Positions 25,041-58,103 of a stretch of 64,000 nucleotides of DNA are shown one piece after another; within the stretch, counting starts at the first letter, position 1; each line of letters opens with the position of its first letter. The stretch covers positions 62,001 through 126,000 of the forward strand of contig JAPPOQ010000009.1 in NCBI GenBank assembly GCA_028817895.1, given 5' to 3'. The notes beneath the pieces are model-generated. The model searched no databases. It was given only the letters and a program-made list of their open reading frames with translations, and was not told the DNA's origin. A program made the translations under genes and the position numbers. Source of the stretch: Ahrensia sp. Lineage in GTDB: Bacteria > Pseudomonadota > Alphaproteobacteria > Rhizobiales > Rhizobiaceae.

Positions 25041-25108
25041 TTTGCGGAACCTCGGAGATGAAGAAAGCCGTCGCTGGCCAACTGCCGGATTACGCTCGAA
25101 ACTCCTTG

Positions 25109-25142
25109 TATCTTTGCGCCACAATCATATTATATTTGCGCC
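25109..25142. promoter_or_regulatory. Direct repeats upstream of soxB and the GlxA-type regulator
   Basis: TATCTTTGCGCC (25109-25120) and TATATTTGCGCC (25131-25142) match at 11 of 12 positions and start exactly 22 bp apart, two helical turns. AraC-family proteins bind such direct repeats. They fall in the 126-bp divergent promoter region, 25 bp before the regulator's start. Confidence 0.6.
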
Positions 25143-25166
25143 GCGCTCGCATCGGAGGCCGTTGAA

Positions 25167-34018: not shown

Positions 34019-35311
34019 CTATCCGACGGTGCTGCCTAGCCAAAGAGTGATGGCGGGGATGGCCACCAGCAAGGCAAGGCGAACCACATCAACTGCGATA
34101 AAGGGTATGAGCCCCCTGAATATCCGAACCACCGGAACATCGGGCAAGACGGCTTTGAGAACGAACACGTTCATGCCGACAGGTGGTGTGACCAGAGCGA
34201 TCTCTGTGACAACGATCACGATGATACCGAACCAGATCAGGTCGAACCCCTGACCGACAACGATTGGAGCAAAGAGCGGCACGAAGATCAGGATGATCGC
34301 CATCGAATCCATCACACACCCAAGCACCATGAAGACGAGCAGGATGACGAAAATCAAAGCGTAACCCTCAAGCCCGGTGGATTGAACGAGGGTGAGAACA
34401 CCGGCTGCCAAACCCGACAACGTCAGCAGTTTCGACAGCATGAGCGCGCCAAAAAGAACCGTGTATAGAGAGACGGAAGTATACGCCGTGTCGATGATGA
34501 CGGTCCGAAGTACTCTCCACGTCAGGCGGCCATGAAAGGTCGCGATCAGGATTGCAAGTCCAGCGCCCATGCCGGCCGCTTCGGTCGGTGTGAAGAGCTT
34601 AGCATAGAGGCCACCGATGATGAGGCCAAACAGCAGAACAAAAGGCCAGATGCCGGACAGTGCCTTCAGCCTCTCCGGCCAGGGGGTCATTTCACCTTGC
34701 GGAGCGTGGCTCGGATCGCGTGCTGCAACGAAGCGGATAGCAAGCATGTAGAGTGCAAGCCCGAGCAGACCGGGAATCACACCGGCGATGAACAGATCTC
34801 CGATATTGGTCTGAGTCAGGATCCCGTAGATCACCATGATAATCGAAGGGGGGATCAGGATGCCCAGTGTGCCGCCAGCCGCGATGGTGCCAGAAGCAAG
34901 CTCATCTGAGTATTTGTACTTCTTCATGCTCGGGTAAGCCACTTTGGCCATGGTGGCCGCGGTGGCATAGCTGGAGCCACAGACCGCTGAGAAACCGGAA
35001 CAGGCGATAATGGTCGATTGAGCCAGTCCGCCACGCACATGGCCGACATAGGCGTAGGCCGCGCGGAACAGATCATGGGCGATTCCCGTCTTGGAGATCA
35101 CGTTCCCCATAAGGATAAACATCGGCACGACGGCCAAGTCGTAGGATAGAACCGCATCGGAAATCGTCAGTGGCAGGAGTTGCAGTGCGATGCTCCAGTT
35201 GATGGCAAAACCAATTCCAGCCACTGATATGGCGAGAAGGGAAAAGGCCAGGGGAACCCGCAGAAAAGCCAGTATGATGGCAGCGGCCATCGCAATGGAG
35301 CCGACGATCAT
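34019..35311 (-). CDS. TRAP transporter large permease (DctM family)
   Basis: About 430 residues, the standard length. ACSGFSAVCGSSYATAATMAK, GTLGILIPPSIIMVIYG, FTPTEAAGMGAG and EIALVTPPVGMNVFVLKA are classical DctM segments. Its start overlaps the DctQ stop (ATGA). Last gene of the minus-strand operon M20 hydrolase-DctP-DctQ-DctM. Confidence 0.9.
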   Translation of the reverse strand: MIVGSIAMAAAIILAFLRVPLAFSLLAISVAGIGFAINWSIALQLLPLTISDAVLSYDLAVVPMFILMGNVISKTGIAHDLFRAAYAYVGHVRGGLAQSTIIACSGFSAVCGSSYATAATMAKVAYPSMKKYKYSDELASGTIAAGGTLGILIPPSIIMVIYGILTQTNIGDLFIAGVIPGLLGLALYMLAIRFVAARDPSHAPQGEMTPWPERLKALSGIWPFVLLFGLIIGGLYAKLFTPTEAAGMGAGLAILIATFHGRLTWRVLRTVIIDTAYTSVSLYTVLFGALMLSKLLTLSGLAAGVLTLVQSTGLEGYALIFVILLVFMVLGCVMDSMAIILIFVPLFAPIVVGQGFDLIWFGIIVIVVTEIALVTPPVGMNVFVLKAVLPDVPVVRIFRGLIPFIAVDVVRLALLVAIPAITLWLGSTVG

Positions 35312-35875: not shown

Positions 35876-36913
35876 TTATTTTCCCGCTAGCGACTTGTAC
35901 GTGTCGTTGTAAAAGTTCAGCATTGCCTGCGGGTCCTCGACACCGGCACTTTTGGCAGCGGTTACCCAATCGGCAACCATGGTGTCGTAGATCGAATCAA
36001 CCGTTGAGATCAGTTCAGGCGAAGCATCGACGATTTCATGGCCGGCCGCACCAAGCTTATCGGTGGCGGCAGGGTTTTGAAGATCGAAGTTCTTGCCCCA
36101 AGCGGCAGAAAGCTTTTCTCCGATGATCCCTTCGATGGCGGCTTTGTCTTGGTCGGACAGACCATCCCACTTGGCTCCGTTCATGATGACGAAGAAGGTC
36201 GCGTCATAGAAACCGTTGGGGAAGATGGTGTGGTGCTTAAGGCTGTTTTCCAAACGGAAGTTGACGACAGACTCCATGGTGTGGAGCGATCCGTCGATTA
36301 CGCCGCTTTCCAGCATCTCGTAGGCCTTGGTCGCGGGTGCCGCTACAGGAACTGCGCCGAGCGAGGTCAGTAGTTTTTCCTGGATCGGCCCGCCCATGCG
36401 GAATTTGACGTTGGCAACATCCTCGGGCGAGGTCACAGTCTTTGAACCGTGGTGAAGCTGGCCACCGCCAAACATGCCGACGGCCAGCATCTTCACGCCG
36501 TCAAAGGCAGTGTTGTCGGCCAGATATTTTTCGTAGGTCTGCCACAGTGCCCGACTTTGAGCCTCGGCATTTGTGCCAGCGTTCGGGAATTCGGCGAACC
36601 ACATCGAAACAAATCGCTCAGGCTCATACGTAAAGTTGCCCCAGGTGATGTCGGCCACGCCGTTGCGGGCGAGTTCCCAGTGTTGCGGTGGACTGGCCAG
36701 CGGTGCCGGCAAGATGGTGACGGTCACGCGACCCTCTGTCACCTCGGCAACTTTTTCTGTGAAAGGGACAAGAAAATCGGTGTGCACGAAATGAGTCGGC
36801 GGCACCCATGACGACATGGTCAGGGTTTCGGCGCTTGCGCCTTGAATAGTGCTGGCGATCAATGCCGCTGCAGCAATGGCGCCTTTGATTTTCTCACTCG
36901 AGAAATGGAACAT
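35876..36913 (-). CDS. TRAP transporter solute-binding protein (DctP family)
   Basis: About 345 residues with a Sec signal peptide (hydrophobic IAAAALIAS, cleavage after GASA). The mature protein starts TLTMSSWVPPTHFVH. TEGRVTVTILPAPLASPPQHWEL, VKFRMGGPIQEKLLTSLGAVPV with the ligand arginine, and ESGVIDGSLHTME follow the DctP pattern. GGGAGGA precedes the ATG. The upstream gene in the same operon encodes an M20 amidohydrolase, so an N-acylated amino acid or hippurate-like solute is plausible. Confidence 0.88.
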   Translation of the reverse strand: MFHFSSEKIKGAIAAAALIASTIQGASAETLTMSSWVPPTHFVHTDFLVPFTEKVAEVTEGRVTVTILPAPLASPPQHWELARNGVADITWGNFTYEPERFVSMWFAEFPNAGTNAEAQSRALWQTYEKYLADNTAFDGVKMLAVGMFGGGQLHHGSKTVTSPEDVANVKFRMGGPIQEKLLTSLGAVPVAAPATKAYEMLESGVIDGSLHTMESVVNFRLENSLKHHTIFPNGFYDATFFVIMNGAKWDGLSDQDKAAIEGIIGEKLSAAWGKNFDLQNPAATDKLGAAGHEIVDASPELISTVDSIYDTMVADWVTAAKSAGVEDPQAMLNFYNDTYKSLAGK

Positions 36914-36943: not shown

Positions 36944-38134
36944 TTAAGTGAACGTGTTAGAATTGAGCCGGTGGCTCGTACGAACCCTTGCCAGATCGGC
37001 AAAGATGGCTGCTCCGACCGGAATGATATCCTTGTCAAAGACGAATTCAGGGTGGTGGGGGGCATGGCCGCTCTGCCCAATAAAAAAGTATGCCCCAGGC
37101 ACAATGGCCGAAAGTTCTGAAAAGTCCTCAGAAGCCATCAGATTGCGTGCGTTTTCAGTTACGCGTTCGACACCAACAACACGTATTGCGGACGAAACGG
37201 CTGCTGCGACGCAGGCAGGACTATTTAAGGTGACCGGGGCAACTTTTGTCACTTCGATTTCGATGGAAACTCCAAAGACGAGCTCCGTGGCCCGCACTGC
37301 ATCCTCAAGAAGGTTAGCCAGTCGATTGCGTATATCCACGGAAGTTGTTCGCATTGTTCCTTCGAGGCGAACAGTTTCCGGCAGAATATTGCGAGCTGCG
37401 CCGCCGTGCAGAAGGCCGAAGGAAATAACTCCGGCAGCGCGGGAGTCGACCAGACGTGTAATTGCCTGCTGAACCGATGTAATCAGATGGGCAGCAGCAA
37501 CGATTGCATCTTCGCCCGTGTGGGGCATCGACCCGTGTGCTCCATTGGCACTTATGGTGATGTTGATGTCATCAGCCGAGGACAAGGCTGCTGTTGCCGG
37601 GATACCCACCTGTCCAGCAGGCAAATCCGGTGAATTATGGAGCGCATAGATTTCATCACATGGAAAACGCTCAAACAATCCATCCGCAAGCATTGCACGC
37701 GCACCAGTCAAGAGCTCTTCGGCTGGCTGGAATATGAAGCGAACCGTTCCGTCGAAATCACTATGTTTGGCAAGATATGCAGCCGCTGTCAGAGCCGTTG
37801 TCATGTGTCCGTCATGCCCGCAACCGTGAAAGCGGTCCGGGATCTGTGACGCATAGCCTAGCCCGGTTTTCTCCGGCATTGGGAGGGCATCGAGTTCTGC
37901 TCGAAATGCAATGCAGCGCCCTGGCATTTCCTGGGAAGCGCTTTCGCCAAGAAGCGTCCCCACGACGCCGGTTCCTCCGATGCCTGTTTCGACATGGTAT
38001 CCGAATTCCTCCAGCCGCTCGGCCACAAAAGCCGCGGTTCTCGATACCTCAAAGCCGGTTTCGGGATGGCGGTGCAGGGTTTGCAGCCAATCTTGCGATG
38101 TTTTGCGTTGCGTTTTGTACCAATTGGCAAACAT
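36944..38134 (-). CDS. M20 family amidohydrolase (hippurate/N-acyl-amino-acid hydrolase-like)
   Basis: About 396 residues. HRHPETGF near residue 20, the metal-site GCGHDGHMT near 105, and the dimerisation-domain SANGAHGSMPHTGEDAIVAAAHLI near 190 identify the M20D group, which includes hippurate hydrolase and IAA-amino-acid hydrolases. Catalytic acidic residues are in QPAEELLTGARAM. I chose ATG 38134. A TTG 20 codons upstream is possible, but the extra residues are basic and atypical, and the ribosome site before the ATG is weak. First gene of the TRAP operon, divergent from a MarR regulator. It probably cleaves the imported amide to a carboxylic acid plus an amino acid. Confidence 0.85.
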   Translation of the reverse strand: MFANWYKTQRKTSQDWLQTLHRHPETGFEVSRTAAFVAERLEEFGYHVETGIGGTGVVGTLLGESASQEMPGRCIAFRAELDALPMPEKTGLGYASQIPDRFHGCGHDGHMTTALTAAAYLAKHSDFDGTVRFIFQPAEELLTGARAMLADGLFERFPCDEIYALHNSPDLPAGQVGIPATAALSSADDINITISANGAHGSMPHTGEDAIVAAAHLITSVQQAITRLVDSRAAGVISFGLLHGGAARNILPETVRLEGTMRTTSVDIRNRLANLLEDAVRATELVFGVSIEIEVTKVAPVTLNSPACVAAAVSSAIRVVGVERVTENARNLMASEDFSELSAIVPGAYFFIGQSGHAPHHPEFVFDKDIIPVGAAIFADLARVRTSHRLNSNTFT

Positions 38135-38187
38135 CGGAGCGATCCCATTTTTATCTTTGCGTGAGAATATTGCACGATAAAACTTGT

Positions 38188-38229
38188 TTGACAAGATAGT
38201 TTCTTGCTGAGATTATTTCGTATGGAAAT
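38188..38229 (+). promoter_or_regulatory. Promoter of the marR gene with an overlapping inverted repeat
   Basis: TTGACA (38188-38193) and GATTAT (38211-38216) are separated by 17 bp, a near-consensus sigma-70 pair. ATTTC-GTATG-GAAAT (38215-38229) is an inverted repeat overlapping the -10 and start region, the expected position for MarR autorepression. Confidence 0.5.
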
Positions 38230-38277
38230 CAGCTAAAACGTGATACCTTTTCAGCACCAGGAACAGGGAAGCTGAGC

Positions 38278-38766
38278 TTGCAGACCGAAAAGACATTCAA
38301 AAACGAACGCCTGACTTACCGGTTGAACATTGTCGCTCAGGAAGCGATCCAGGCCAATGACGATATCTTTTTTGGTGAAACGGGATGTCGTATCCGCGAT
38401 TTGCGCGTGCTGCGTTTGATCGATGACCAGCCGGGCACCACCTTCGCAGAAATTGCTCAAACCACAGGCTTTGATAGGAGCCTAACCTCCAGAATCATTC
38501 AAAATCTGATTGGCAGTGGTCTGATCGAACGTCAAAACTCCAGTGAAGATGCGCGAGTGTTCCTGCTCTCCACAACACCAAAGGGAAAAGAGATCCGAAA
38601 AGTGGCACGCCGATTGTCAGATCGGTTGGAAGTGATACTCACAGATCCGCTATCAGCGCAGGAGTTGCGAACATTGAACGAAATCCTGGAGCGCCTTGGT
38701 GCTTGGGTGACCTCAGAAGATTATCGAAATGCGCTGACCTATGAGATAAAAGAAGATGCAATGTAA
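38278..38766 (+). CDS. MarR-family transcriptional regulator
   Basis: About 162 residues. The winged helix shows RIRDLRVLRLIDDQPGTTFAEIAQTTGFDRSLTSRIIQNLIGSGLIERQNSSEDARVFLLSTTPKGKE, the typical recognition helix and beta wing with the D-x-R motif. The TTG start at 38278 follows AGGGAAG. It is divergent from the M20-TRAP operon and probably represses it until an aromatic or acyl ligand binds. Its downstream neighbour is separated by its own promoter and a glycine riboswitch, so it is not part of the bhc operon. Confidence 0.88.
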   Translation: MQTEKTFKNERLTYRLNIVAQEAIQANDDIFFGETGCRIRDLRVLRLIDDQPGTTFAEIAQTTGFDRSLTSRIIQNLIGSGLIERQNSSEDARVFLLSTTPKGKEIRKVARRLSDRLEVILTDPLSAQELRTLNEILERLGAWVTSEDYRNALTYEIKEDAM

Positions 38767-38773
38767 AATAGTC

Positions 38774-38802
38774 TTGACATGAAACTAGTTTACGCTTAGG
38801 AG
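38774..38802 (+). promoter_or_regulatory. Promoter of the riboswitch-bhc operon
   Basis: A perfect TTGACA lies at 38774-38779. The -10 at 17-bp spacing is TAGGAG (38797-38802), which is weak. Transcription from here would begin just before the riboswitch aptamer at 38821. Confidence 0.4.
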
Positions 38803-38820
38803 CTTTTCAGCCTACCAAGC

Positions 38821-38896
38821 TGTCACAGGAGAGGCCGACATATTCGGCGCCGAAGGAGCAACCCCCCGGAACCTCTCAGGCAAAAGGACTGTGACA
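38821..38896 (+). ncRNA. Glycine riboswitch (single aptamer)
   Basis: The RNA has the glycine aptamer core. P1 is TGTCACA (38821-38827) with TGTGACA (38890-38896). Between them are the GGAGAGG segment, a hairpin GCCGACATATTCGGC, the invariant GCCGAAGGAGCAAC, then CCGGAA, and CTCTCAGGCAAAAGGAC. Only one copy is present; the following sequence does not repeat the core. Glycine riboswitches usually turn genes on, typically gcv genes, when glycine is high. Here the RNA leads a FAD dehydrogenase and the beta-hydroxyaspartate enzymes. Confidence 0.95.
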
Positions 38897-38937
38897 AGCG
38901 CGGCGATCTGAAGCGCGCTGCGGAACTGTATCCGCAT

Positions 38938-38996
38938 CCCGCGACAGAGGGGATTGGACCTGTCATCCGGCGGGACGAAACCTGGGTCGCGGGAGG
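38938..38996 (+). promoter_or_regulatory. Ribosome-site-sequestering stem of the glycine riboswitch
   Basis: CCCGCGAC (38938-38945) is a perfect complement of GTCGCGGG (38986-38993). The latter covers the first half of the ribosome-binding site GGGAGG (38991-38996), five bases before ATG 39002. An additional hairpin TGCGGA/TCCGCA lies at 38919-38936. This suggests translational control, with the stem as the off-state. The link to glycine binding is inferred. Confidence 0.55.
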
Positions 38997-39001
38997 TTTC
39001 C

Positions 39002-40285
39002 ATGACCAGAATTGCCGTTATTGGCGCCGGGATCACCGGCGTAACCACTGCCTCGAGCCTGCAAGACAGGGGCTATGACGTCACCTTGTTCGATCGCAAC
39101 CGCTATGCCGCGATGCAGACGTCGTTCGCCAATGGCGGGCAACTGTCCGCATCGAATGCTGAAACCTGGAACCGGTGGTCCACCGTTTTCAAGGGGATGA
39201 AATGGATGATGACGCGCGGCGCGCCGCTTCTCGTCAATCCCAAGCCAAGCTGGCACAAGTACAGCTGGATGGCCGAGTTCGTGGGGTCGATCCCGCAATA
39301 CCGGGCGAACACAGTCGAGACGACCCGCATGGCAATTGCTGCGCGGGGTCTGCTGCGCGAAAAGGCGGAGCGGCACGGTTTCGATTTCGACTGTGAAGAT
39401 CGCGGCATTTTGCACATCTATACCGACAAGGCAGAGTTTGATCACGCAACCCAGGTGAACAAGCTGCTCGCTGAGGGTGGTTTGGAGCGCCGCGCAGTGG
39501 CGCCCGAGGAAGTCCGCGAGATCGAGCCTGCACTTAGCGGCGATTTCTACGGCGGCTACTATGCCGAAAGCGATTTTACCGGCGACATTCACCGCTATAC
39601 GACGGGCCTTGCCAAATCCATCGAGAAGGGTGGAGCGGTTCTGCGGTTCGGCACCGATGTAGATGCGCTGAAGGTTGAAAGGAATGCGGTGCGTCTGACC
39701 TGGAGCCGGAACAACGAGAGCCAGGTCGAGACCTTCGATGCTATCATCGTTTGCGCCGGTGTCGAAAGCCGGGACATCGCGGCGCAGCTTGGCGACCGGG
39801 TGAACGTCTACCCAGTCAAAGGCTATTCAATCACCGTTCGCCTTGATGACGAGGAAAGCCAGCAGTCTGCGCCCTGGATCAGCTTGCTTGATGATGAGGC
39901 CAAGGTCGTGACCAGCCGTCTGGGCAAAGACCGATTCCGAATTGCCGGTACAGCGGAGTTCAACGGGTACAATCTTGACATCCGGGATGACCGGGTACGC
40001 CCGCTGGTGAAGTGGTGCGAACGGTTCTTCCCCGGTGTCAGTACCGAACACGCCATCCCGTGGGCAGGTCTGCGCCCCATGATGCCGAACATGATGCCAA
40101 AAGTCGGGCAGGGCAAGCGAGACCGCGTGTTCTACAATACCGGGCACGGGCATCTTGGCTGGACCCTGTCTGCCGTTACCGCCGAAATGGTGGCCGATAA
40201 GGTCGCGGGGTCGCGGACTGTCAACAGTGCAGGCGCTGTGATCTCAGGCGACACCGCGCCTTTGCAAGAGCAAGGAGCGCTATGA
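39002..40285 (+). CDS. DadA-like FAD-dependent amino acid dehydrogenase, candidate glycine dehydrogenase
   Basis: About 427 residues. An N-terminal FAD fold (IAVIGAGITGVTTASSLQDRGYDVTLFDRN) is followed by the DadA-type ANGGQLSASNAETW segment near residue 43. The D-amino-acid-oxidase-like C-terminal GLRPMMPNMMPKVG and NTGHGHLGWTLSA bind FAD. DadA proteins are membrane-associated, quinone-linked D-amino acid dehydrogenases. Because the gene is headed by a glycine riboswitch and is translationally coupled to bhcB, I infer that it deaminates glycine to glyoxylate. Oxidation of a D-amino acid remains possible. It occupies the operon place where an aminotransferase (bhcA) would stand in described clusters. 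Confidence 0.85.
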   Translation: MTRIAVIGAGITGVTTASSLQDRGYDVTLFDRNRYAAMQTSFANGGQLSASNAETWNRWSTVFKGMKWMMTRGAPLLVNPKPSWHKYSWMAEFVGSIPQYRANTVETTRMAIAARGLLREKAERHGFDFDCEDRGILHIYTDKAEFDHATQVNKLLAEGGLERRAVAPEEVREIEPALSGDFYGGYYAESDFTGDIHRYTTGLAKSIEKGGAVLRFGTDVDALKVERNAVRLTWSRNNESQVETFDAIIVCAGVESRDIAAQLGDRVNVYPVKGYSITVRLDDEESQQSAPWISLLDDEAKVVTSRLGKDRFRIAGTAEFNGYNLDIRDDRVRPLVKWCERFFPGVSTEHAIPWAGLRPMMPNMMPKVGQGKRDRVFYNTGHGHLGWTLSAVTAEMVADKVAGSRTVNSAGAVISGDTAPLQEQGAL

Positions 40286-41256
40286 TGTATGCGCCCACAT
40301 ACGACGACATGCTCGCTGCACATGTCAGGATCGCCCCGCACATTCGGCGCACACCCGTGCGGACATCGGACTATCTGAGCGAGTTGGCGGGTTGCCAGCT
40401 GTTCTTCAAATGCGAAAATTTTCAAGAGCCGGGGGCCTTTAAGGTGCGCGGCGCTACGAACGCGGTCTTTGGCCTGGATGATGCTCAGGCCGCCATGGGC
40501 GTGGCGACTCATTCGAGCGGCAACCATGCGTCGTGCCTGTCCTACGCAGCCATGTTGCGAGGCATTCCCTGCAACGTGGTCATGCCGCGTACCGCGCCGC
40601 AAGCCAAGAAAGACACGGTGCGCCGCTACGGTGGGGTGATAACCGAATGCGACCCGTCGACTTCCTCGCGGGAAGCAACCTTTGCCGAGGTGCAGGCGCG
40701 CACGGGCGGCGATTTTGTGCACCCTTACAATGATCCGCGGGTGATCGCGGGGCAGGGGACCTGTTCGAAGGAATTCATCGAGCAGACAGACGGGCTCGAC
40801 ATGGTTGTCGCGCCCATCGGTGGTGGCGGAATGATCTCCGGCACCTGTCTGACGCTATCGGCGCTGGCCCCGGAGACCAAGGTGATTGCCGCCGAGCCGG
40901 AACAGGCCGACGACGCCTATCGCAGCTTCAAGGCTGGCCACATCATTGCCGATGACGCGCCCAAAACGATCGCCGATGGCCTGCTGGTGCCGCTCAAAGA
41001 CCTGACCTGGCACTTCGTGTCGAACCATGTGTCCGAGATTTACACGGCCTCGGAACAGGAAATTATCGACGCGATGAAACTGATCTGGAAGCACCTGCGC
41101 GTCGTGATGGAACCCTCGAGCGCTGTGCCACTCGCCACCATCCTCAAGAACCCCGACGCCTTCAAAGGCAACCGCGTCGGCGTAATCATCACCGGCGGCA
41201 ACGTCGATCTGGACAAACTGCCCTGGTTGCAGGGCCAAATCGGAGAATTGCCATGA
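40282..41256 (+). CDS. bhcB: Beta-hydroxyaspartate dehydratase (threonine-dehydratase-like)
   Basis: About 324 residues of fold-type II PLP enzymes. The PLP lysine is K54 in PGAFKVRGA. SSGNHASC and the phosphate cup GGGGMISG are present. It resembles serine racemase/EutB-type dehydratases. Established role of the family in the beta-hydroxyaspartate cycle: dehydration of (2R,3S)-beta-hydroxyaspartate to iminosuccinate. The assignment rests on the bhcC and bhcD neighbours. Its start overlaps the dehydrogenase stop (ATGA), and its stop overlaps bhcC by 4 bp. Confidence 0.85.
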   Translation: MMYAPTYDDMLAAHVRIAPHIRRTPVRTSDYLSELAGCQLFFKCENFQEPGAFKVRGATNAVFGLDDAQAAMGVATHSSGNHASCLSYAAMLRGIPCNVVMPRTAPQAKKDTVRRYGGVITECDPSTSSREATFAEVQARTGGDFVHPYNDPRVIAGQGTCSKEFIEQTDGLDMVVAPIGGGGMISGTCLTLSALAPETKVIAAEPEQADDAYRSFKAGHIIADDAPKTIADGLLVPLKDLTWHFVSNHVSEIYTASEQEIIDAMKLIWKHLRVVMEPSSAVPLATILKNPDAFKGNRVGVIITGGNVDLDKLPWLQGQIGELP

Positions 41257-42419
41257 AAGACCGTATTGATTTGAACGCCTATGAGGTTGGTTTCGACATT
41301 CCCGCCAAACCGGGCATGGATGCGAAAGATATTCAAACACCTGCTCTGGTGCTGGACCTCGACGCTTTGGAGCGCAACATCAAGAAGATGGGCGATTATG
41401 CCAAGGCGCATGGTATGCGGCACCGTGCCCATGGCAAGATGCACAAATCCGTCGACGTTCTGAAACTGCAAATGGAGCTGGGCGGAGCTATCGGTGTATG
41501 TTGCCAGAAGGTGTCTGAGGCCGAGGTATTTGCCCGCGCGGGCATCAAGGAGATTCTTGTCTCCAACCAGGTGCGGAACCCGGGCAAGATTGAGCGCCTG
41601 GTGCAGCTGCCCAAGCTGAGTGGTGGTGAAGTGATTGTCTGTGTCGACGATGTCGCAAACGTGTCGGACCTGTCGGCGGCTGCCATCGAGGCGGGCACGA
41701 CCTTGGGTGTCTTCGTGGAAGTTGACTGCGGTGCCGGACGCTGCGGTGTGACCACCACCCCGGCGGTGGTCGAGATCGCCAAGGCCGTCACCACAGCGGA
41801 AAACCTGACCTATCGCGGCATTCAGGCCTACCAGGGCGCAATGCAGCACATGGACAGCTTCGACGATCGCAAGGCCAAGATCGACGCTGCCATCGCGCAA
41901 GTCCAGGATGCCGTGGACGCGCTGAAGGCCGAAGGCATCGAAACCGGCCTGGTTTCGGGCGGTGGCACGGGGTCCTACTACTTCGAGTCGAACTCCGGCA
42001 TCTACAACGAACTGCAGTGTGGCTCCTACGCATTCATGGACGCGGACTATGGCCGCATTCTGGACAAGGACGGAAAGCGCATCGACGCGGGCGAATGGGA
42101 AAACGCCTTCTTCATCCTGACCTCTGTCATGAGCCACGCCAAAGCCGACAAGGCAATCTGCGATGCAGGTCTCAAGGCGCAATCGGTCGACAGCGGTCTG
42201 CCGTTCATCTACGGGCGCGACGATGTGGAATACATCAAGTGTTCGGACGAGCACGGCGTCATTTCTGACCCGAACGGCGTGTTGAAGGTCAATGAAAAAC
42301 TCAAGCTCGTACCCGGGCACTGTGATCCGACGGCCAATGTGCACGACTGGTACGTCGGCGTGCGGAACGGCAAGGTGGAAAGTGTTTGGCCGGTATCCGC
42401 CCGCGGGCGCGCTTACTGA
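41253..42419 (+). CDS. bhcC: Beta-hydroxyaspartate aldolase (D-threonine-aldolase-like)
   Basis: About 388 residues with an alanine-racemase-type barrel. IQTPALVLDLDALERNI begins the barrel, and the PLP lysine is probably K62 in HGKMHKS. VFVEVDCGAGRCGV, SGGGTGSYYFES and the C-terminal metal site PGHCDPTANVHDWYVGVR (H, C, D) fit the metal-dependent D-threonine aldolase family. In the beta-hydroxyaspartate cycle this enzyme condenses glycine and glyoxylate to (2R,3S)-beta-hydroxyaspartate. Overlapping start with bhcB indicates coupled translation. Confidence 0.88.
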   Translation: MKDRIDLNAYEVGFDIPAKPGMDAKDIQTPALVLDLDALERNIKKMGDYAKAHGMRHRAHGKMHKSVDVLKLQMELGGAIGVCCQKVSEAEVFARAGIKEILVSNQVRNPGKIERLVQLPKLSGGEVIVCVDDVANVSDLSAAAIEAGTTLGVFVEVDCGAGRCGVTTTPAVVEIAKAVTTAENLTYRGIQAYQGAMQHMDSFDDRKAKIDAAIAQVQDAVDALKAEGIETGLVSGGGTGSYYFESNSGIYNELQCGSYAFMDADYGRILDKDGKRIDAGEWENAFFILTSVMSHAKADKAICDAGLKAQSVDSGLPFIYGRDDVEYIKCSDEHGVISDPNGVLKVNEKLKLVPGHCDPTANVHDWYVGVRNGKVESVWPVSARGRAY

Positions 42420-42421
42420 AT

Positions 42422-42510
42422 CTGCCGGAAGCGGCAGGCAGGGCCGGCCACCTCCCCGCCGGCCCCCGCCCGTGTGCAAACTGGCCCTCTTGGCGACAGT
42501 GCACGGGCGG
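42422..42510 (+). promoter_or_regulatory. Cluster of three hairpins between bhcC and bhcD
   Basis: Three stems follow one another: CTGCCG/CGGCAG (42422-42437), GGGCCGG/CCGGCCC (42441-42465) and CCGCCCGTG/CACGGGCGG (42466-42510). No T-run follows. They may protect the upstream mRNA end or adjust bhcD expression relative to bhcC. Confidence 0.5.
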
Positions 42511-42533
42511 ATCAAGACTTACTGGAGACAGAA

Positions 42534-43499
42534 ATGCTGATCATACCTGAACGGAACATTGCCGACCTTATGACGCGTGAGGCGGCATTTGATGCCGTCG
42601 AAAAGATATTTGCCGCAATGGCCTCAGGCGATGCCTACAATTTCCCTGTGGTGCGCGAGGCCATTGGTCATGAAGACGCACTTTACGGCTTCAAGGGTGG
42701 CTTCGACCGCGCGGGCCTGACTTTGGGTCTGAAAGCAGGTGGGTACTGGCCAAACAATCTGGATAAGCGCGGGCTGATCAACCACCAATCGACGGTGTTC
42801 CTGTTCGATCCCGACACCGGCAAGCCGTCTGCCATGGTGGGTGGCAACCTGCTGACCGCGTTACGCACAGCGGCAGCGTCATCCATATCAATCAAGCATT
42901 TGGCACGGGCTGATGCGAAGATAATCGGCATGATAGGTGCAGGACATCAGGCCACCTTTCAGCTTTGCGCTGCGTTGGAACAACGTAATTTCGAAAAGGT
43001 CATTGGCTGGAACTACCACCCCGAGATGCTACCCAAGATCGAAAAGGTAGCTTTGGAAGCTGGTATTCCATTCGAAGCTGTAGCCCTGCCTGGCATGCGC
43101 GACGCAGATGTGATTGTCTCGATCACCTCGGCCTTTGCACCTTCTCTCATGGACGACCATGTCAGCCCTGGCACCCACCTCGCCTGTATGGGTACCGACA
43201 CCAAAGGCAAGCAGGAGGTTGAGGCATCGCTGTTAGCCCACTCCTTGGTTTTCACAGATGAAATTGGCCAGTCAATCAGCATCGGTGAAGCACAGCATGC
43301 GGTTGCAAAGGGCTTGATCAGCGAAAGCGACATTGCCCAGCTTGGTGCCGTAATCAACGGTACCCATCCAGGTCGCACCTCGGACGATCAGATCACACTC
43401 TTCGACGGCACTGGTGTCGGCCTTCAGGACCTAGCTGTCGCCGCCGCGGTGGTCGATCTCGCGGTTGCGCGCGGTATTGCTGCCGAGGTCGATTTCTGA
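42534..43499 (+). CDS. bhcD: Iminosuccinate reductase (ornithine-cyclodeaminase family)
   Basis: About 321 residues of the mu-crystallin/ornithine cyclodeaminase family. GGFDRAGLTLGLKAGGYWPNN precedes the Rossmann dinucleotide site IIGMIGAGHQATFQL near residue 135. LACMGTDTKGKQEV and TLFDGTGVGLQDLAVAA are family features. The cycle enzyme reduces iminosuccinate to aspartate with NADH. GGAG lies 6 bp before ATG 42534. It is separated from bhcC by 114 bp of hairpins but is clearly in the same transcription direction and pathway. Confidence 0.87.
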   Translation: MLIIPERNIADLMTREAAFDAVEKIFAAMASGDAYNFPVVREAIGHEDALYGFKGGFDRAGLTLGLKAGGYWPNNLDKRGLINHQSTVFLFDPDTGKPSAMVGGNLLTALRTAAASSISIKHLARADAKIIGMIGAGHQATFQLCAALEQRNFEKVIGWNYHPEMLPKIEKVALEAGIPFEAVALPGMRDADVIVSITSAFAPSLMDDHVSPGTHLACMGTDTKGKQEVEASLLAHSLVFTDEIGQSISIGEAQHAVAKGLISESDIAQLGAVINGTHPGRTSDDQITLFDGTGVGLQDLAVAAAVVDLAVARGIAAEVDF

Positions 43500-43547: not shown

Positions 43548-44750
43548 CTAAACCCGCTCAAGGATGAGTGCCGCCCCCTGACCAACACCAACACACATGG
43601 TGCAGAGGGCATATCGCCCGCCCGTACGCTGCAAATGCCGAGTGGCGGTAAGCACAAGACGGGCACCGGACATGCCCAGCGGATGGCCAAGGGCGATGGC
43701 GCCACCGTTCGGATTAACATGCTCCGCATCGTCAGGAAGTCCAAGTTCCCGCAAGGTTGCCAACGCCTGCGAAGCAAAAGCTTCGTTCAATTCGATAACA
43801 TCCATTTGTTCGATGGAAAGACCGGTTCGCTCGAGCACCTTGCGCGTGGCAGGAACTGGGCCGATCCCCATGACCCGGGGTGGGACACCCGCTGCAGCCA
43901 TTCCAACAATTCGCACGACGGGTTGCAGACCATTGCGCGATGCCGAAGCCTCGTTTGCCAAAAGGAGGGTGGCTGCACCATCGTTCACGCCTGACGCATT
44001 GCCCGCTGTCACGGTCAGCTCCGGACCATTCACGCCTTTGAGCCCTGCCAGTTTTTCAACGCTCGTTCCCGGGCGCGGATGTTCGTCCCTGTCAACCACC
44101 AGCGGATCACCTCTGCGCTGCGGAATTGTCACCGGAACAATCTCATCGGTAAAGATCCCTGCGTTCTGGGCTGTTTCCCATCGTGCCTGTGATCTTGCGG
44201 CGAAGGAATCCTGGTCGTCCCGACTGATATTGTAATCTGCCGCAACATTGTCTGCAGTCTGTGGCATGGAATCCGTCCCATGTTGAGCCTGCATCTTCGG
44301 GTTCGGAAAACGCCATCCTATGGTGGTGTCAAAGACGGTATTGGCCCGCGAAAAGGCGCTGGTTGCCTTTGGCATAACGAAGGGCGCGCGGCTCATGCTT
44401 TCTACGCCGCCGGAAATCACCATATCCTGATCACCTGAACGTATGGCGCGCGCGCCCAGCCCAACTGCGTCGAGACCACTGGCGCACAGCCGGTTCACCG
44501 TTGTCCCTGGAACTTCAACAGGCAAACCAGCAAGAAGTGCTGCCATACGCGCAACATTGCGGTTGTCTTCTCCAGCCTGATTGGCGGAGCCGTAGACAAC
44601 ATCATCGACTTGTCCCCAGTCCACATCAGGGTTTCGGACAACCAATTCCGCAAGAGGCAGGGCAGCAAGATCATCCGCACGAACCAAAGATAGGGCGCCG
44701 CCATAGCGGCCGATCGGTGTTCTGATGCCGTCGCAAACAAACGCGTCCAT
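43548..44750 (-). CDS. pcaF: Acetyl-CoA acyltransferase, 3-oxoadipyl-CoA thiolase-like
   Basis: About 400 residues. The nucleophile is in [14 protein letters not shown] near residue 90, the histidine in NEAFASQ, then HPLGMSGAR, and the second cysteine in [13 protein letters not shown] near the C-terminus. GDEEP-type sequences are replaced by [18 protein letters not shown], as in PcaF/PaaJ thiolases. It cleaves 3-oxoadipyl-CoA to succinyl-CoA plus acetyl-CoA, the last step of box and phenylacetate pathways. I chose ATG 44750, one base after the stop of the isomerase gene. Confidence 0.87.
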
Positions 44751-44751
44751 G

Positions 44752-45540
44752 TTAACGTTCTCCGGAAAAATTGGGCGCCCGTTTGTCCAGAAACGCCGCA
44801 ACGCCTTCTGCATAGTCGGGGTGTTCACCGCAAAGCTTCATGAGCTCGGCCTCAAAATCGAGATGAGCATCTAGCGTGTTCGTGGCTGCGGCCGAAATGG
44901 CATCCTTGGTCCGGGCATATCCAAAAGTAGGCCCGGCCGAGAGCCGCTCTGCCAAATCGCGCCCAGTTGTCAGAAGTTCGTCATCCGGGACAACCTTCCA
45001 GATTAGGCCCCAATCGGCCGCCTTATTCGCGGAAAGCGGTTCTGCTGTTAGCGCCAGCCCCATGGCGCGAGCGCGCCCAAGCAAACGCGTCAGTTGCCAG
45101 CTCCCACCGGTATCAGGGATGAGGCCAACTTTAGAAAACGACTGGATAAATCTGGCGCTCTCCGCGGCGATAACCATGTCACAGGCAAGAGCTACGCTGG
45201 AGCCTGCGCCTGCAGCAACCCCGTTCACGGCACAAATTACCGGCATCTCCAAAGAACGAATCTGCCTCACTAAGGGTGCCCAATAGGTCCTCACGGTGGC
45301 CCCCAGATCTGGAGGGCCATCCATCGTTCGTGGGTCGCGATCTCCAAGATCTTGCCCGGCGCAAAATCCCCGTCCTGCCCCGGTCAGAAGCACAGCGCGT
45401 TTCGCATCGGATGCTGCACTTTCCAGCGCACCTCTCAATTCGAGATGCATGTCCGCCGTAAAACTGTTGAGCCTCTCCGGCCGGCTTAATGTGATTTCTA
45501 CCCAATTCCCATGGTCGGTCACCAGTATCGAATTTTCCAT
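44752..45540 (-). CDS. paaG: Enoyl-CoA hydratase/isomerase, PaaG-like
   Basis: About 262 residues, crotonase fold. [14 protein letters not shown] and [16 protein letters not shown] form the oxyanion holes. [43 protein letters not shown] matches PaaG closely. In this cluster it probably shifts the double bond of 3,4-dehydroadipyl-CoA to the 2,3 position or hydrates it, linking BoxD to the thiolase. I chose ATG 45540 because GGAAGAG precedes it; an ATG four codons earlier has no such site. Divergent from the aldehyde dehydrogenase. Confidence 0.85.
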
Positions 45541-45557
45541 GGACTCTTCCATTTGAT

Positions 45558-45653: not shown

Positions 45654-47201
45654 ATGGTTCAGAAAGTAGAGAGTTTTGTGCTCGGTAAGTGGATCGGTCC
45701 CGGCGAGGGTGCCAGGTCGATTGCGCACGCAATCACTGGTGACGTGATTGCAGAGGCGGGGAATGACGGTCTCGACTACACGGGAATGATTGATTACGCG
45801 ATATCAAAGGGTGGTCTCGCTCTACGCTCCATGAGTTTCCATCAGCGTGCAGACATGCTGAAGAAACTCGCACTCCATCTCAATGAGCAAAAAGAAAAGC
45901 TTTATGAGATATCTTTTGCAACCGGCGCGACGGCCATGGATCACATGGTGGACGTGGATGGTGGCATTGGTACGCTTTTTGTTTATGCGTCCAAGGGCAA
46001 GAAGGAATTGCCGGACACCGACGTAATAATCGACGGTGAACGCGAGCAATTCGGAAAGACGGGCGTATTTCTTGGTCAGCACGTCTACACGTCAAAGCCT
46101 GGCGTAGCCGTGCATATAAATGCGTTCAACTTTCCGGTTTGGGGCATGCTCGAAAAAATTGCGCCAAGCTTGTTGGCCGGGATACCATCCATCGTCAAAC
46201 CCGCAACTGTAAGCTGTTATGTGACAGAGACGTGCGTGCGACTGATGAATGAAAGCGGTGTCCTGCCGGAAGGCGCCGTTCAGCTCGTCACAGGCGGCTT
46301 GGGGAACACATTGGACTTGCTGACCTGCCAGGATATTGTCACGTTCACTGGCTCTGCCGAGACAGCAAGGCACCTGCGCAATTCAGGAAGCCTTATGCTG
46401 AATGGCGTTCCGTTCTCGTCGGAACAGGACAGTCTCAATGCGTCCATACTTGGACCGGATGCTGTACCTGGGACGCCGGAATTCGACCTGTTCGTCAAAG
46501 AGGTAACACGGGAGATGACCGTTAAATCAGGTCAGAAATGCACCGCAATCCGGCGGATTTTGACCCCGCAAGATCAGGTCGCCTCGGTTATCGAAGCCTT
46601 GTCAGCACGGCTTGAAAAAACCAGCGTCGGCGATCCGCGTGTCGAGGGTGTTCGCATGGGGGCCTTGGTCAGCCAGGAGCAACGCAAGGATGTGCTCGCG
46701 AAGGCGGAGCTGATCTCGTGCGAAGCGGAGAAGGTTTTCGGTGGCCAAGACGGTTTCTCACCGATAGGTGCAGATATCGAAAAGGGGGCCTTTGTTGCTC
46801 CGACGCTGTATTGTTGTGCTGACCCCGATAATGCAACGGCGGTTCATGAAACCGAAGCTTTCGGCCCCGTATCAACGGTCATGGGATATCGCGATCTGAA
46901 CCACGCTATTGCTCTGGCAAACCGGGGCCAGGGAAGTTTGGTAGCTTCGGTAATCACACATAGCCCCGATGTGGCGCGCGCCGTGATTGTTGGCTCTGGG
47001 CCCTTCCATGGGCGGCTCTACTTCAACGATAGGGACTCGATGTCGGAAAGCACCGGCCATGGTGCGCCTATGCCCCATATGGTACATGGTGGACCTGGGC
47101 GGGCCGGAGGTGGTGAAGAACTGGGTGGGATTCGTGGCGTGAAGCACTTCATGCAGCGTACGGCTGTGCAAGGCGGGCCTGCGGTGCTTAATACACTCTG
47201 A
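45654..47201 (+). CDS. boxD: 3,4-dehydroadipyl-CoA semialdehyde dehydrogenase, BoxD-like
   Basis: About 515 residues, the aldehyde dehydrogenase domain alone. AFNFPVWGMLEKIAPSLLAGIPSIVKPA near residue 160, VTFTGSAETARHLR, the catalytic cysteine in KSGQKCTAIRR near 300, and ETEAFGPVSTVMGY are visible. The closest architectures are the N-terminal half of PaaZ and the stand-alone BoxD of the aerobic benzoyl-CoA pathway. With no hydratase domain present and boxABC in the same island, BoxD is the better reading. It oxidises 3,4-dehydroadipyl-CoA semialdehyde to the acid. ATG 45654 follows ACGGAGAA. Confidence 0.85.
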   Translation: MVQKVESFVLGKWIGPGEGARSIAHAITGDVIAEAGNDGLDYTGMIDYAISKGGLALRSMSFHQRADMLKKLALHLNEQKEKLYEISFATGATAMDHMVDVDGGIGTLFVYASKGKKELPDTDVIIDGEREQFGKTGVFLGQHVYTSKPGVAVHINAFNFPVWGMLEKIAPSLLAGIPSIVKPATVSCYVTETCVRLMNESGVLPEGAVQLVTGGLGNTLDLLTCQDIVTFTGSAETARHLRNSGSLMLNGVPFSSEQDSLNASILGPDAVPGTPEFDLFVKEVTREMTVKSGQKCTAIRRILTPQDQVASVIEALSARLEKTSVGDPRVEGVRMGALVSQEQRKDVLAKAELISCEAEKVFGGQDGFSPIGADIEKGAFVAPTLYCCADPDNATAVHETEAFGPVSTVMGYRDLNHAIALANRGQGSLVASVITHSPDVARAVIVGSGPFHGRLYFNDRDSMSESTGHGAPMPHMVHGGPGRAGGGEELGGIRGVKHFMQRTAVQGGPAVLNTL

Positions 47202-49033: not shown

Positions 49034-49043
49034 GCATCTGAGG

Positions 49044-49071
49044 GCCGCCGCTCCGGATAAAGAGTGGCGGC
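49044..49071 (+). terminator. Intercistronic hairpin after the binding-protein gene
   Basis: GCCGCCGCT (49044-49052) pairs with AGTGGCGGC (49063-49071), nine pairs including one G-U, across a 10-nt loop in the 59-bp gap. It probably stabilises the dctP mRNA or attenuates dctQM. Confidence 0.55.
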
Positions 49072-49092
49072 TCTTCGATCTGCGAGGGCATC

Positions 49093-49677
49093 ATGTATTC
49101 GTTCGTTGACCGATTAGCGCGCTTGTTCGCGCAGTTGGGAGGGCTGGTTCTTGCGGCCCTGATCATCCTGACTTGCCTCTCCATTGCGGGAAGGTCTCTG
49201 AATGGCGTGCTGCATGCAGATTGGATACAAACAGTCCTCCCGGGTGTCGCAACCGCGCTTCTCGACTTGGGGATAGGTCCAATAAACGGCGACTTTGAAC
49301 TCGTTGAAGCCGGCATGGCCTTCTCGATCTTCGCATTTCTTCCGCTTTGCCAACTGAACGGGGCGCATGCTGCGGTCAATGTCTTCACATCGGCACTTCC
49401 AATGCGGGCCAACCGTCTTTTGCGAACGGTTATTGAAGTCGTTTTTGCCGGGGTGCTGATCCTAATTGCCTGGCAGCTTTTCGAAGGCATGCAGAGCAAG
49501 CGGAGCACCGCGCAAACGACCTTCCTTCTCGAATTTCCTGTATGGTGGGGCTATGCAGTGAGCCTGGTGGCGGCTGTCGTGGCTGCATTGGTCTCGGTCT
49601 ATGTCGCTGGCATGCGGGTGGTTGAGACCTTATCCGGACGTCGGGTTCTGCCCCCTGAATTGGAGGCGGACCATTGA
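49093..49677 (+). CDS. TRAP transporter small permease (DctQ family)
   Basis: About 194 residues with four hydrophobic helices. LAALIILTCLSIAGRSLNGVL near residue 17 is the DctQ start, NGDFELVEAGMAFSIFAFLPLCQLNGAHAAVNVF the core. It overlaps the large permease by 4 bp. Confidence 0.86.
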   Translation: MYSFVDRLARLFAQLGGLVLAALIILTCLSIAGRSLNGVLHADWIQTVLPGVATALLDLGIGPINGDFELVEAGMAFSIFAFLPLCQLNGAHAAVNVFTSALPMRANRLLRTVIEVVFAGVLILIAWQLFEGMQSKRSTAQTTFLLEFPVWWGYAVSLVAAVVAALVSVYVAGMRVVETLSGRRVLPPELEADH

Positions 49678-56567: not shown

Positions 56568-58103
56568 ATGACCGGAAATGCTGCAAACTGGTTTGTGGAT
56601 CGCCATATCGATGAAGGCCGCAACGAGAAAGTCGCCTTCCGCGAGGTATGGGAAGGTGGACGTGATATCACCTACGGAGAACTGGCTGACGGGTCCGCTC
56701 GTGTAGCGGGCGCCTTGGAAAATGCCGGAATCCGTCGTGAGGAACGAGCTGCCATGTTCGTACTCGATCAGATCGAATTCCCACTCATCTTCTGGGGTGC
56801 ACTCAAGGCTGGAATCCAGCCAATCGCTCTTAACACGCTTTTGGCGACGGATGTCTACAAGACGATTCTAGACGACAGTCGAGCCAGCATCGCCTTCGTT
56901 TCAGCTGAGTTACTCGATGTTGTGATGCCTGCTGCACGCTCCTGTGAACATCTGCGCAAGGTGGTTGTCATTGGTGGAGATACGCCGGAAGGAGCGAGCT
57001 CCTGGGGCGATTTCATGGATGGCGCTGAGCCCAAGGAAACAATCGCATGTTCTTGCGATGAAATCGCCTTTTGGCTCTACTCTTCGGGTTCGACGGGGAC
57101 ACCAAAGGGTGTGCGTCATGTGCACGAATCTCTGCAAGTTACTTGCAACACATTTGGGAGTCAGGTTCTGAACATTCAGGATTCTGACACGACGTTCTCT
57201 GCGGCCAAGCTCTTTTTCGCATATGGCCTTGGCAATGGGATGTCATTTCCCCTGTCGGTCGGCGCAACCAGCCTGCTCTACAATGGGCGTCCGACACCTG
57301 ACACTGTCAGCAACATCCTATCCAAATATCAACCGACGATCTACTATGGTGTACCCACGCTCTACGCAGCCATGGTTCATAAATGGGAAGCTGAGGGCGC
57401 ACACCCTGAGGCGCCGTTGCGTATATGCACTTCGGCAGGTGAAGCATTGCCCGCAGAAATCGGGCGCAAGTGGAAAGATATATGGGGTGTCGACATCATC
57501 GATGGAGTTGGCTCCACCGAGATGCTGCATATCTTTCTATCCAATCGGCCTGGTGACGTTCAATATGGCACTTCAGGAACTGCCGTGCCCGGATATCAGG
57601 TGCGCCTTGTGGACGAAGAGGGTGCAGACGTTCCCGCAGGGGGCGTAGGCGAGCTGCTCGTGCGCGGCGGGTCTTCGGCCGCTGATTACTGGAACCAACG
57701 GCAAAAATCGCGAACCACCTTTGAAGGCGAGTGGACAAGGACGGGTGACAAATACGAACTGACGGAGGCCGGACGCTATATTTACTGTGGCCGGACCGAT
57801 GACATGTTCAAGGTCTCGGGCATTTGGGTCAGCCCCTTTGAAATTGAGCAGGCGCTGATCGAATACCCGGCGGTGCTTGAAGCTGCAGTTGTGGCGCACC
57901 GCGACGATGACGACCTCGAAAAACCCAAAGCCTTTATTGTTCTGAAGGACGGACAGGGACCAGAGGCTCTTGATGGATTGAAAGAGTTCATCAAAGACAA
58001 GATCGGCAAGTGGAAATATCCACGTTGGGTTGAAGTGGTTGAAGATTTGCCCAAGACAGCGACAGGCAAGATCCAACGCTTCAAGTTAAGAGAAACTGTA
58101 TGA
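56568..58103 (+). CDS. bclA: Benzoate-CoA ligase
   Basis: About 511 residues of the ANL superfamily, benzoate-CoA ligase group. VDRHIDEGRNEKVAFREVW is near the start. The P-loop is FWLYSSGSTGTPKGVRHVHESL near residue 170. KLFFAYGLGNGMSFPLSVGATSLL follows, then SAGEALPAEIGRKW, DGVGSTEMLHIFLSNRPGDVQYGTSG, the hinge region DDMFKVSGIWVSPFEIEQAL, and the C-terminal lysine in KTATGKIQRFKLR. It activates benzoate with ATP and CoA to benzoyl-CoA, the substrate of BoxAB. The stop overlaps the hydrolase start (ATGA). Confidence 0.92.
   Translation: MTGNAANWFVDRHIDEGRNEKVAFREVWEGGRDITYGELADGSARVAGALENAGIRREERAAMFVLDQIEFPLIFWGALKAGIQPIALNTLLATDVYKTILDDSRASIAFVSAELLDVVMPAARSCEHLRKVVVIGGDTPEGASSWGDFMDGAEPKETIACSCDEIAFWLYSSGSTGTPKGVRHVHESLQVTCNTFGSQVLNIQDSDTTFSAAKLFFAYGLGNGMSFPLSVGATSLLYNGRPTPDTVSNILSKYQPTIYYGVPTLYAAMVHKWEAEGAHPEAPLRICTSAGEALPAEIGRKWKDIWGVDIIDGVGSTEMLHIFLSNRPGDVQYGTSGTAVPGYQVRLVDEEGADVPAGGVGELLVRGGSSAADYWNQRQKSRTTFEGEWTRTGDKYELTEAGRYIYCGRTDDMFKVSGIWVSPFEIEQALIEYPAVLEAAVVAHRDDDDLEKPKAFIVLKDGQGPEALDGLKEFIKDKIGKWKYPRWVEVVEDLPKTATGKIQRFKLRETV

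Follow-up and report, generated by a model that had tools for sequence, protein, structure and literature searches.

The beta-hydroxyaspartate cycle of Paracoccus denitrificans is encoded by bhcABCD together with the IclR-type regulator gene bhcR, and is regulated by BhcR and glyoxylate; neither 'riboswitch' nor 'glycine' occurs in the main text of that account (PMC11323563). Among glycine riboswitches, 93% of the type-1 singletons precede glycine cleavage genes, and this context is tied to ON switches, according to one survey (PMC6944388). A glycine sensor on a glyoxylate-using gene has also been described, namely the malate synthase riboswitch of Pelagibacter (SAR11), which has tandem aptamers (PMC2211319). 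Here, we describe an operon of Ahrensia sp. (contig JAPPOQ010000009.1, positions 62,001 to 126,000; this whole stretch of 64,000 nucleotides is called the window), in which a glycine riboswitch precedes a dadA-like flavoenzyme gene and bhcB, bhcC and bhcD. The locus is rather probably the glycine arm of hippurate (or related aroylglycine) utilisation, turning glycine into aspartate under an ON riboswitch; we infer the substrates, the binding and ligand of the adjoining MarR-family regulator and the direction of the switch. The operon is real, conserved and apparently mobile, and consists of known parts whose wiring was not found described in the literature searched.

Enzyme families were called by the curated NCBIfam equivalog cut-offs, and the riboswitch by Rfam covariance models. 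The features of the operon and its leader are as follows.

38816..38901, plus strand: glycine riboswitch aptamer, RF00504 (69.3 bits)
38907..38948, plus strand: ghost-aptamer stem, 38907-38915 pairing with 38940-38948 (26-leader alignment)
38938..38993, plus strand: anti-Shine-Dalgarno helix, 38938-38945 pairing with 38986-38993 (26-leader alignment)
38959..38974, plus strand: conserved hairpin between the two anti-Shine-Dalgarno arms (4 of 6 pairs changed on both sides)
38991..38996, plus strand: Shine-Dalgarno sequence of the dadA-like gene (read from the sequence; close relatives similar)
39002..40285, plus strand: dadA-like flavin adenine dinucleotide (FAD) enzyme, proposed glycine dehydrogenase/oxidase (NF009074, PRK12409, 703.7 bits, cut-off 494)
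40282..41256, plus strand: bhcB, beta-hydroxyaspartate dehydratase (NF045641, 577.8 bits, cut-off 550)
41253..42419, plus strand: bhcC, beta-hydroxyaspartate aldolase (NF045642, 732.8 bits, cut-off 690)
about 42534..43499, plus strand: bhcD, iminosuccinate reductase (NF045643, 578.5 bits, cut-off 500; the profile begins at this ATG)

All four genes lie on the same strand and exceed their NCBIfam cut-offs. The 4-base overlaps at the dadA-like/bhcB and bhcB/bhcC junctions agree with the overlapping gene string noted in an earlier reading made from the DNA letters alone (the sequence-only reading). The listed GTG start of bhcD at 42474 adds 20 residues beyond the BhcD profile. The nearest solved chains are 6qkb (D-3-hydroxyaspartate aldolase, E 1.3e-209) for BhcC and 6rqa (iminosuccinate reductase, E 1.7e-135) for BhcD. 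The operon resembles the beta-hydroxyaspartate cycle in the families of BhcB, BhcC and BhcD, in the BhcC tree and in the three expected reactions; however, it lacks bhcA, is led by a flavoenzyme, carries a glycine riboswitch and a MarR gene instead of BhcR, and would take in glycine rather than glyoxylate in a linear rather than cyclic route. It differs from the SAR11 malate synthase riboswitch in its enzyme and in its one aptamer, and from the gcvT riboswitches, with which it shares the RF00504 aptamer, the ghost stem of type-1 singletons and glycine breakdown downstream, in preceding a flavoenzyme and bhc genes and in its predicted translational control by strand exchange at the ghost stem.

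Is the riboswitch then a property of the bhc genes or of the dadA-like gene? The best 80 of 270 dadA-like relatives in species genomes were compared, with loci reaching 6 kb on each side. An aptamer was found 5' of the dadA-like gene in 76 of the 80 by our own covariance model, R1, for which the window, the second dadA-like locus (L142) of the same genome and 17 of these 80 loci served as input, so that those match by construction. The loci with no R1 match are L051, L066, L067 and L070, of which L051 is borderline with RF00504 (32.8 bits). A chance aptamer was dropped as an explanation on the strength of the 76 relatives. The 80 relatives are spread over Rhodobacterales, Rhizobiales, Granulosicoccaceae, Pseudomonadaceae and a few further groups. 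The order dadA-bhcB-bhcC-bhcD recurs in 7 of the 80 loci, one of which (L031) has a broken dadA frame. As a contrast, ten loci of 11-14 kb, namely two bhcABCD clusters (L140, L141) plus eight loci that encode BhcC-like proteins (L132-L139), gave no R1 match at E 1e-5; a short motif search matched L134 at 1518, which was not confirmed by R1. Among these loci, L132 (genome G139) and L133-L137 carry BhcC-like aldolases (578-693 bits) outside bhc clusters, with no aptamer match.

Within the family of the window, PRK12409 exceeds its cut-off in 31 of 151 genomes, with 33 genes, and an aptamer lies no more than 500 bases upstream of at least 30 of them, the three misses not being certain. Among 20 riboswitch loci of the family, mostly the best-scoring ones, 8 precede dadA-like genes and 12 precede gcvT-like genes, the latter assigned on their weak similarity to SoxA's GcvT domain. 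The riboswitch and the dadA-like gene are therefore a wider unit, independent of the bhc genes. In the genome of the window, three glycine aptamers were found, the one in the window and a tandem pair on contig 41 (L142). The tandem pair is directly 5' of a second PRK12409 gene, without bhc genes, and the pair and this gene together occupy 4169-5714 of L142; every glycine riboswitch found in this genome consequently precedes a dadA-like gene. The second protein is 63-65% identical to that of the window, and its gene is followed by another at 5749-6543 of L142.

The distribution of the glycine cleavage system points in the same direction. Neither gcvP nor gcvH was matched at E 0.001 or lower in the genome of the window (3.54 Mb, 46 contigs, 99.85% complete), by searches that were each positive in 10 of 14 control genomes. 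In the family, gcvP is missing in 21 of 151 genomes, one of which (G142) was deduced. PRK12409 occurs in 16 of these 21 and in 15 of the 130 gcvP-bearing genomes (odds ratio 24.5, Fisher p 2.3e-9, 12 genera); a stricter count, with G111 moved (17.5-bit gcvP match, no PRK12409 above cut-off), gives 16/22 versus 15/129. Five gcvP-less genomes have no PRK12409. Three of them (G005, G044, G001) are either below 2.1 Mb (two) or 85% complete (one), and G074 and G133 have no such explanation. In a member of the same genus as the window, G082, gcvP is present, the riboswitch is 5' of a gcvT-like gene, and there is no PRK12409 above cut-off. Among the 80 relatives, 36 dadA genomes were searched and 28 have gcvP, while gcvP is missing in 8 of 17 genomes with the stand-alone riboswitch-dadA unit.

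The dadA-like enzyme is proposed to oxidise glycine because of the aptamer linkage, the enrichment where gcvP is missing and the fold, for which glycine oxidases are the nearest. Its predicted structure has a predicted local distance difference test score (pLDDT) of 81.5, and the first three Foldseek rows are glycine oxidases, aligned at about 20% identity across the fold; enzymes for glycine, sarcosine or dimethylglycine account for 24 of the top 30 rows. A phmmer search against solved chains returned two sequences below 1e-10, both glycine oxidases. The glycine oxidase ThiO is thus the nearest solved relative by sequence and fold, but the protein does not reach the ThiO family cut-off (TIGR02352, 135.8 versus 250.8 bits). 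DadA of the PRK00711 type belongs to the same superfamily; however, the protein is also under that cut-off (322.5 versus 383 bits), and its gene is preceded by a glycine riboswitch.

Several points weigh against a glycine-fed operon that takes the place of glycine cleavage. The NCBIfam name of NF009074 is D-amino acid dehydrogenase. Malate synthase G is present in the genome of the window, which offers another exit for glyoxylate. The gcvP association is uncorrected for descent, and since related genomes are not independent, the p value is a guide only. In addition, gcvP was present in every one of the 19 genomes tested from the hippurate-type clade described below, so the operon is not a glycine cleavage replacement there. 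The family name could suggest a D-amino-acid operon, with DadA acting on D-amino acids, BhcC acting as a D-threonine-type aldolase, to which family of enzymes it is related, and the riboswitch reporting by-product glycine. We regard this as very unlikely, given that BhcB, BhcC and BhcD are all above cut-offs specific for beta-hydroxyaspartate enzymes, that BhcC is nested among the cycle copies, and that the riboswitch and gcvP data indicate glycine. The glycine-fed linear route put forward in the sequence-only reading gains support from the missing gcvP and gcvH matches, the second dadA-like gene behind tandem aptamers and the family-wide exclusion of gcvP and PRK12409.

The leader was then compared across relatives. 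RF00504 has one match in the window, full length (1-94, E 2.3e-12, gathering score 32), and R1 scores it at 85.7 bits, the window being part of that model. The single aptamer of the sequence-only reading stands in so far as there is one RF00504 match; what it had overlooked is the conserved ghost-aptamer stem that follows, on account of which the leader looks like a type-1 singleton. The alignment covers 26 of 28 candidates (the window and L008-L034), L021 and L031 being left out since the gene start was not located. In the aptamer P1 stem, 7 of 8 pairs are changed on both sides and 81.3% of cells are paired. The ghost stem UCUGAAGCG/CGCGACAGA is paired in 98.9% of cells, and the anti-Shine-Dalgarno helix CCCGCGAC/GUCGCGGG in 92.6%, with weak covariation. 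The strand CGCGAC is common to both helices, which are therefore mutually exclusive.

When P1 and the ghost stem were forced together in folding the 26 leaders, the mean openness of the Shine-Dalgarno sequence rose from 0.26 to 0.75, with an increase in 26 of 26 and values equal to two decimals in L015, L022 and L024; the ghost stem alone gave 0.60 and P1 alone 0.35. Because the two helices compete for one strand and the forced P1 and ghost stem open the ribosome site, the comparison favours a translational, glycine-ON switch, whose direction is a prediction from the alignment. The sequence-only reading had taken no side on the direction. A transcription terminator as the expression platform was dropped, as a scan of 38100-39100 gave no terminator-like site, though the scan was simple.

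The leader data are not uniform. The outer four ghost-stem pairs are invariant in all 26 leaders. In the anti-Shine-Dalgarno helix, just 1 of 8 pairs is changed on both sides, and as many as three consecutive pairs are mismatched (L027). The ghost stem alone gains more than 0.1 in just 17 of the 26 leaders, and the leader of the window is only half open in the forced state (0.47). Its unconstrained fold hides the Shine-Dalgarno sequence together with a formed P1, as would be expected if the riboswitch were an OFF switch that limits the operon at high glycine, and glycine riboswitches can be OFF, as before transporters (PMC6944388). Such a switch nevertheless seems improbable here: the type-1 singletons of that survey are mostly 5' of genes for glycine breakdown, a setting associated with ON switches, the forced P1 and ghost stem open the ribosome site, and the genes of the operon consume glycine.

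How did the bhc genes join the unit? In the BhcC tree (35 rows; the duplicate operon copies L123, L125-L130 and L099 left out, and L124 counted as an operon copy although dadA is not within its stretch), nine operon-type copies form one clade (100/100), nested among copies from bhcABCD clusters. In the BhcB and BhcD trees, the operon copies are not one clade and mix with some cluster copies, with at least three forced changes for BhcD, so bhcB and bhcD of the operon were likely exchanged later with cycle copies. A single origin of the operon bhc genes is thus suggested by the BhcC tree, and only by it. The most likely course, judged from the distribution of the unit and these trees, is that bhcBCD were inserted from a cycle cluster into the riboswitch-dadA unit. 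The view that dadA merely substitutes for bhcA within a bhc cluster was dropped on the same grounds. The sequence-only reading is supported in that a FAD enzyme would start the route, whereas its suggestion that this enzyme had replaced the aminotransferase does not hold, the wider unit most likely having received bhcBCD.

The DadA-like protein of the window shares 94% identity with its Primorskyibacter counterpart and nests in the Roseobacter-clade group, so the operon package likely arrived by horizontal transfer. A plasmid DNA search gave 215 records, none over 80% of the query, and the 25 matches listed extend over bhcBCD only. In L031 (G159, Mesobacterium pallidum, 5659-7235), the dadA frame is interrupted while the aptamer and bhcBCD are present, which is either a pseudogene or a sequencing error. 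L020 (G157, Thetidibacter) has a bhcB remnant after dadA at 6729-7760, and its sole BhcC adjoins bhcA; here bhcBCD were apparently lost from the operon.

No bhcA was found beside the operon, as had been stated from the sequence, and the best BhcA match in the genome reaches 274 bits against a cut-off of 650, for which reason the operon is not filed as a beta-hydroxyaspartate cycle, and a true bhcA elsewhere in this genome was dropped. The match is a class V aminotransferase on another contig (G000:C43:94435-95577). The absence of bhcA is not a rule, because 6 of the 9 searched genomes that harbour the operon or a remnant of it have BhcA above cut-off elsewhere. In four of these six (G151, G152, G154, G156), two BhcC genes exceed the cut-off, the first adjoining bhcA and the second belonging to the operon; G155, G158, G159 and the genome of the window have the operon copy of BhcC only and no BhcA above cut-off, and in G153, BhcA and one BhcC are on broken contigs and not assignable. 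The class V protein might substitute for BhcA in a remnant cycle whose operon assimilates glyoxylate, the more so as all 9 operon genomes searched contain similar matches of 256-281 bits. However, it is far under the BhcA cut-off and on another contig, and similar matches occur in genomes with no BhcC match, e.g., G082 and G039. A glycine sensor would also be unexpected on a glyoxylate-fed operon, and the adjoining regulator is of the MarR family and not an IclR-type BhcR. Consequently, a remnant cycle is hardly credible.

The genes around the operon suggest where its glycine may come from. The sequence-only reading had missed this setting, with its MarR-type palindrome at the promoter. The neighbouring features are as follows.

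34019..35311, minus strand: dctM, TRAP transporter large permease (TIGR00786, 312.7 bits, cut-off 268; adjoins the operon in relatives too)
35876..36913, minus strand: dctP, TRAP solute-binding protein (NF037995, 60.8 bits, cut-off 50; PF03480)
36944..38134, minus strand: M20 amidohydrolase, proposed hippurate (aroylglycine) hydrolase by its setting (TIGR01891, 314 bits, cut-off 154)
38151..38169, no strand: MarR-operator-like palindrome, 3 mismatches to TAGTCT-N7-AGACTA (motif scan; may be chance)
38197..38215, no strand: MarR-operator-like palindrome, 2 mismatches (many relatives have a site with 1-3 mismatches at the same place)
38278..38766, plus strand: MarR-family regulator, start codon unsure (PF12802, PF01047)
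38769..38787, no strand: MarR-operator-like palindrome over a -35-like TTGACA, 5' of the riboswitch (1 mismatch)
43548..44813, minus strand: 3-oxoadipyl-CoA thiolase, pcaF type (TIGR02430, 696 bits, cut-off 597)
44752..45552, minus strand: PaaG-type isomerase (TIGR02280, 369 bits, cut-off 345)
45654..47201, plus strand: 3,4-dehydroadipyl-CoA semialdehyde dehydrogenase, boxD type (NF008868, 607 bits, cut-off 444; also above the TIGR02278 (PaaZ) cut-off, 709 versus 563)
56568..58103, plus strand: benzoate-CoA ligase (TIGR02262, 724 bits, cut-off 375)
59514..61169, plus strand: boxC (TIGR03222, 969 bits, cut-off 712)
61239..62690, plus strand: boxB (TIGR03225, 904 bits, cut-off 499)
62975..64000, plus strand: boxA, truncated at the end of the window (TIGR03224, 440 bits for the in-window part, cut-off 459)

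Hippurate (benzoylglycine) is suggested because it is what an M20 amidohydrolase, the sensing and use of glycine, and two unrelated benzoate pathways (ben/cat or box) would have in common; the operon is a probable member of a hippurate locus made up of TRAP, M20 and MarR genes with benABCD/catB or box genes. The hippurate-type clade comprises 27 loci (L008-L033 and L082), of which 24 have MarR, 21 have M20 and 18 have catB-benA downstream; several others end at a contig edge. In L015, catB, benA, benB, benC and benD were identified by NCBIfam. In 6 of the 7 relatives with bhc genes, bhcBCD are located between dadA and catB. The nearest solved chain to the dctP product is 4p56 (E 2.4e-60), which we take to be a mandelate-bound protein. 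The MarR-family protein also has an HTH_IclR Pfam match, weaker (33 bits) than its MarR_2 match (52 bits).

A MarR-type palindrome occurs no more than 120 nt after MarR in 20 of the 23 relatives examined, compared with 12 matches in all the remaining sequence of those loci. The window has 10 matches with no more than 3 mismatches, of which 7, each with 3 mismatches, are elsewhere. The -35-like TTGACA was read by eye and is not listed by the promoter scan. On this pattern, MarR may bind the palindromes at the amidohydrolase and dadA promoters.

On the other hand, L030, L032 and L033 keep MarR, TRAP and the riboswitch-dadA unit, and no M20 gene was found beside them; the M20 family is a broad one, and the solved chains closest to the M20 protein (YxeP, indole-3-acetic acid (IAA)-amino acid hydrolase, an M20 peptidase and N-acylglutamine aminoacylase) include no hippuricase. 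Both points count against hippurate as the substrate. The breadth of the family leaves some room for an operon supplied with free glycine or through the breakdown of sarcosine/betaine, in which case TRAP and M20 would act on a different N-acyl amino acid and an excess of glycine would be the sole signal. The window does contain sarcosine oxidase genes, soxA (20479-23475) and soxB (23787-25040), beside a GbdR-like regulator gene at 25167 (20479-26150 for the whole set), and these are another source of glycine in a genome with no gcvP or gcvH match. However, 13.7 kb separates the end of the sox genes from the operon, the relatives' loci of 6 kb on each side being too short to show such linkage, whereas M20-TRAP-MarR and ben/catB are conserved beside the operon and MarR-type sites occur at both the amidohydrolase and the dadA sides. 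We therefore consider such a supply possible but unlikely.

In the hippurate reading, the TRAP transporter would import hippurate or a related aroylglycine, and the M20 amidohydrolase would split it into the aromatic acid and glycine. The aromatic acid would enter the box pathway in the genome of the window, or benABCD/catB in most relatives whose flanks extend that far. The MarR repressor, with operators 5' of the amidohydrolase gene and over the -35 element of the dadA-bhc promoter, would open transcription. With glycine bound, the aptamer and the ghost stem would form, so that the strand 38938-38948 is occupied and the ribosome site free (ON); without glycine, this strand would mask the ribosome site by pairing (OFF). 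The dadA-like enzyme would turn glycine into glyoxylate, BhcC would join glyoxylate to a second glycine, BhcB would dehydrate the product to iminosuccinate and BhcD would reduce this to aspartate. The net reaction would be two glycine to aspartate and ammonia, with no BhcA and no loss of CO2. All the enzyme substrates are assigned here from family membership and gene context.

A wider reading has, in our view, about an even chance. A widespread proteobacterial flavin glycine dehydrogenase (PRK12409) under riboswitch control may replace gcv where gcvP was lost; the Roseobacter clade would have joined it with bhcBCD into a pathway from two glycine to aspartate, placed it under an AND gate of MarR and glycine-ON in hippurate catabolism, and passed it horizontally into the order of the window. 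If so, there would be a further route of glycine breakdown without CO2 loss, glycine handling in some gcvP-less genomes would be explained, and an enzyme family now named D-amino acid dehydrogenase would be re-assigned. Beta-hydroxyaspartate chemistry would also extend from glyoxylate to the breakdown of amino acids and conjugates, with a riboswitch reading a product released from a conjugate. Hippurate is a common waste product, and the operon would use its glycine half. As for the sequence-only reading, its observation is confirmed, and its interpretation is partly supported.

In the open-licence literature, no account was found, among the matches listed, of a glycine riboswitch with bhc genes or the beta-hydroxyaspartate cycle, nor was one found joined with D-amino acid dehydrogenase or hippurate or, among the matches listed, with glycine dehydrogenase, the supplementary gene lists (PMC3766115, PMC2211319) being outside the search; dadA may already be listed somewhere as a glycine-riboswitch context, e.g., in such lists. 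A search for glycine riboswitch and amino acid oxidase returned only a Fusarium gene, and no hippurate locus of such make-up was found.

Two further gene sets were seen. On a plasmid of Leisingera caerulea (L163, 11380-23260), MarR, M20 (67.6% identical) and TRAP genes are located beside FAD monooxygenase genes, with a benzoate transporter gene some 6 kb further on; the 25 kb examined has no gene annotated as dadA, its gene table being incomplete. Because MarR-M20-TRAP adjoins FAD monooxygenases there, the conjugate may be a different aroylglycine. In the window itself, a second TRAP-type set (47987-51170), comprising dctM and a gene for a dctP-like protein with 31% identity to that of the first set, is located between boxD and the box cluster, and is possibly for aromatic acid uptake.

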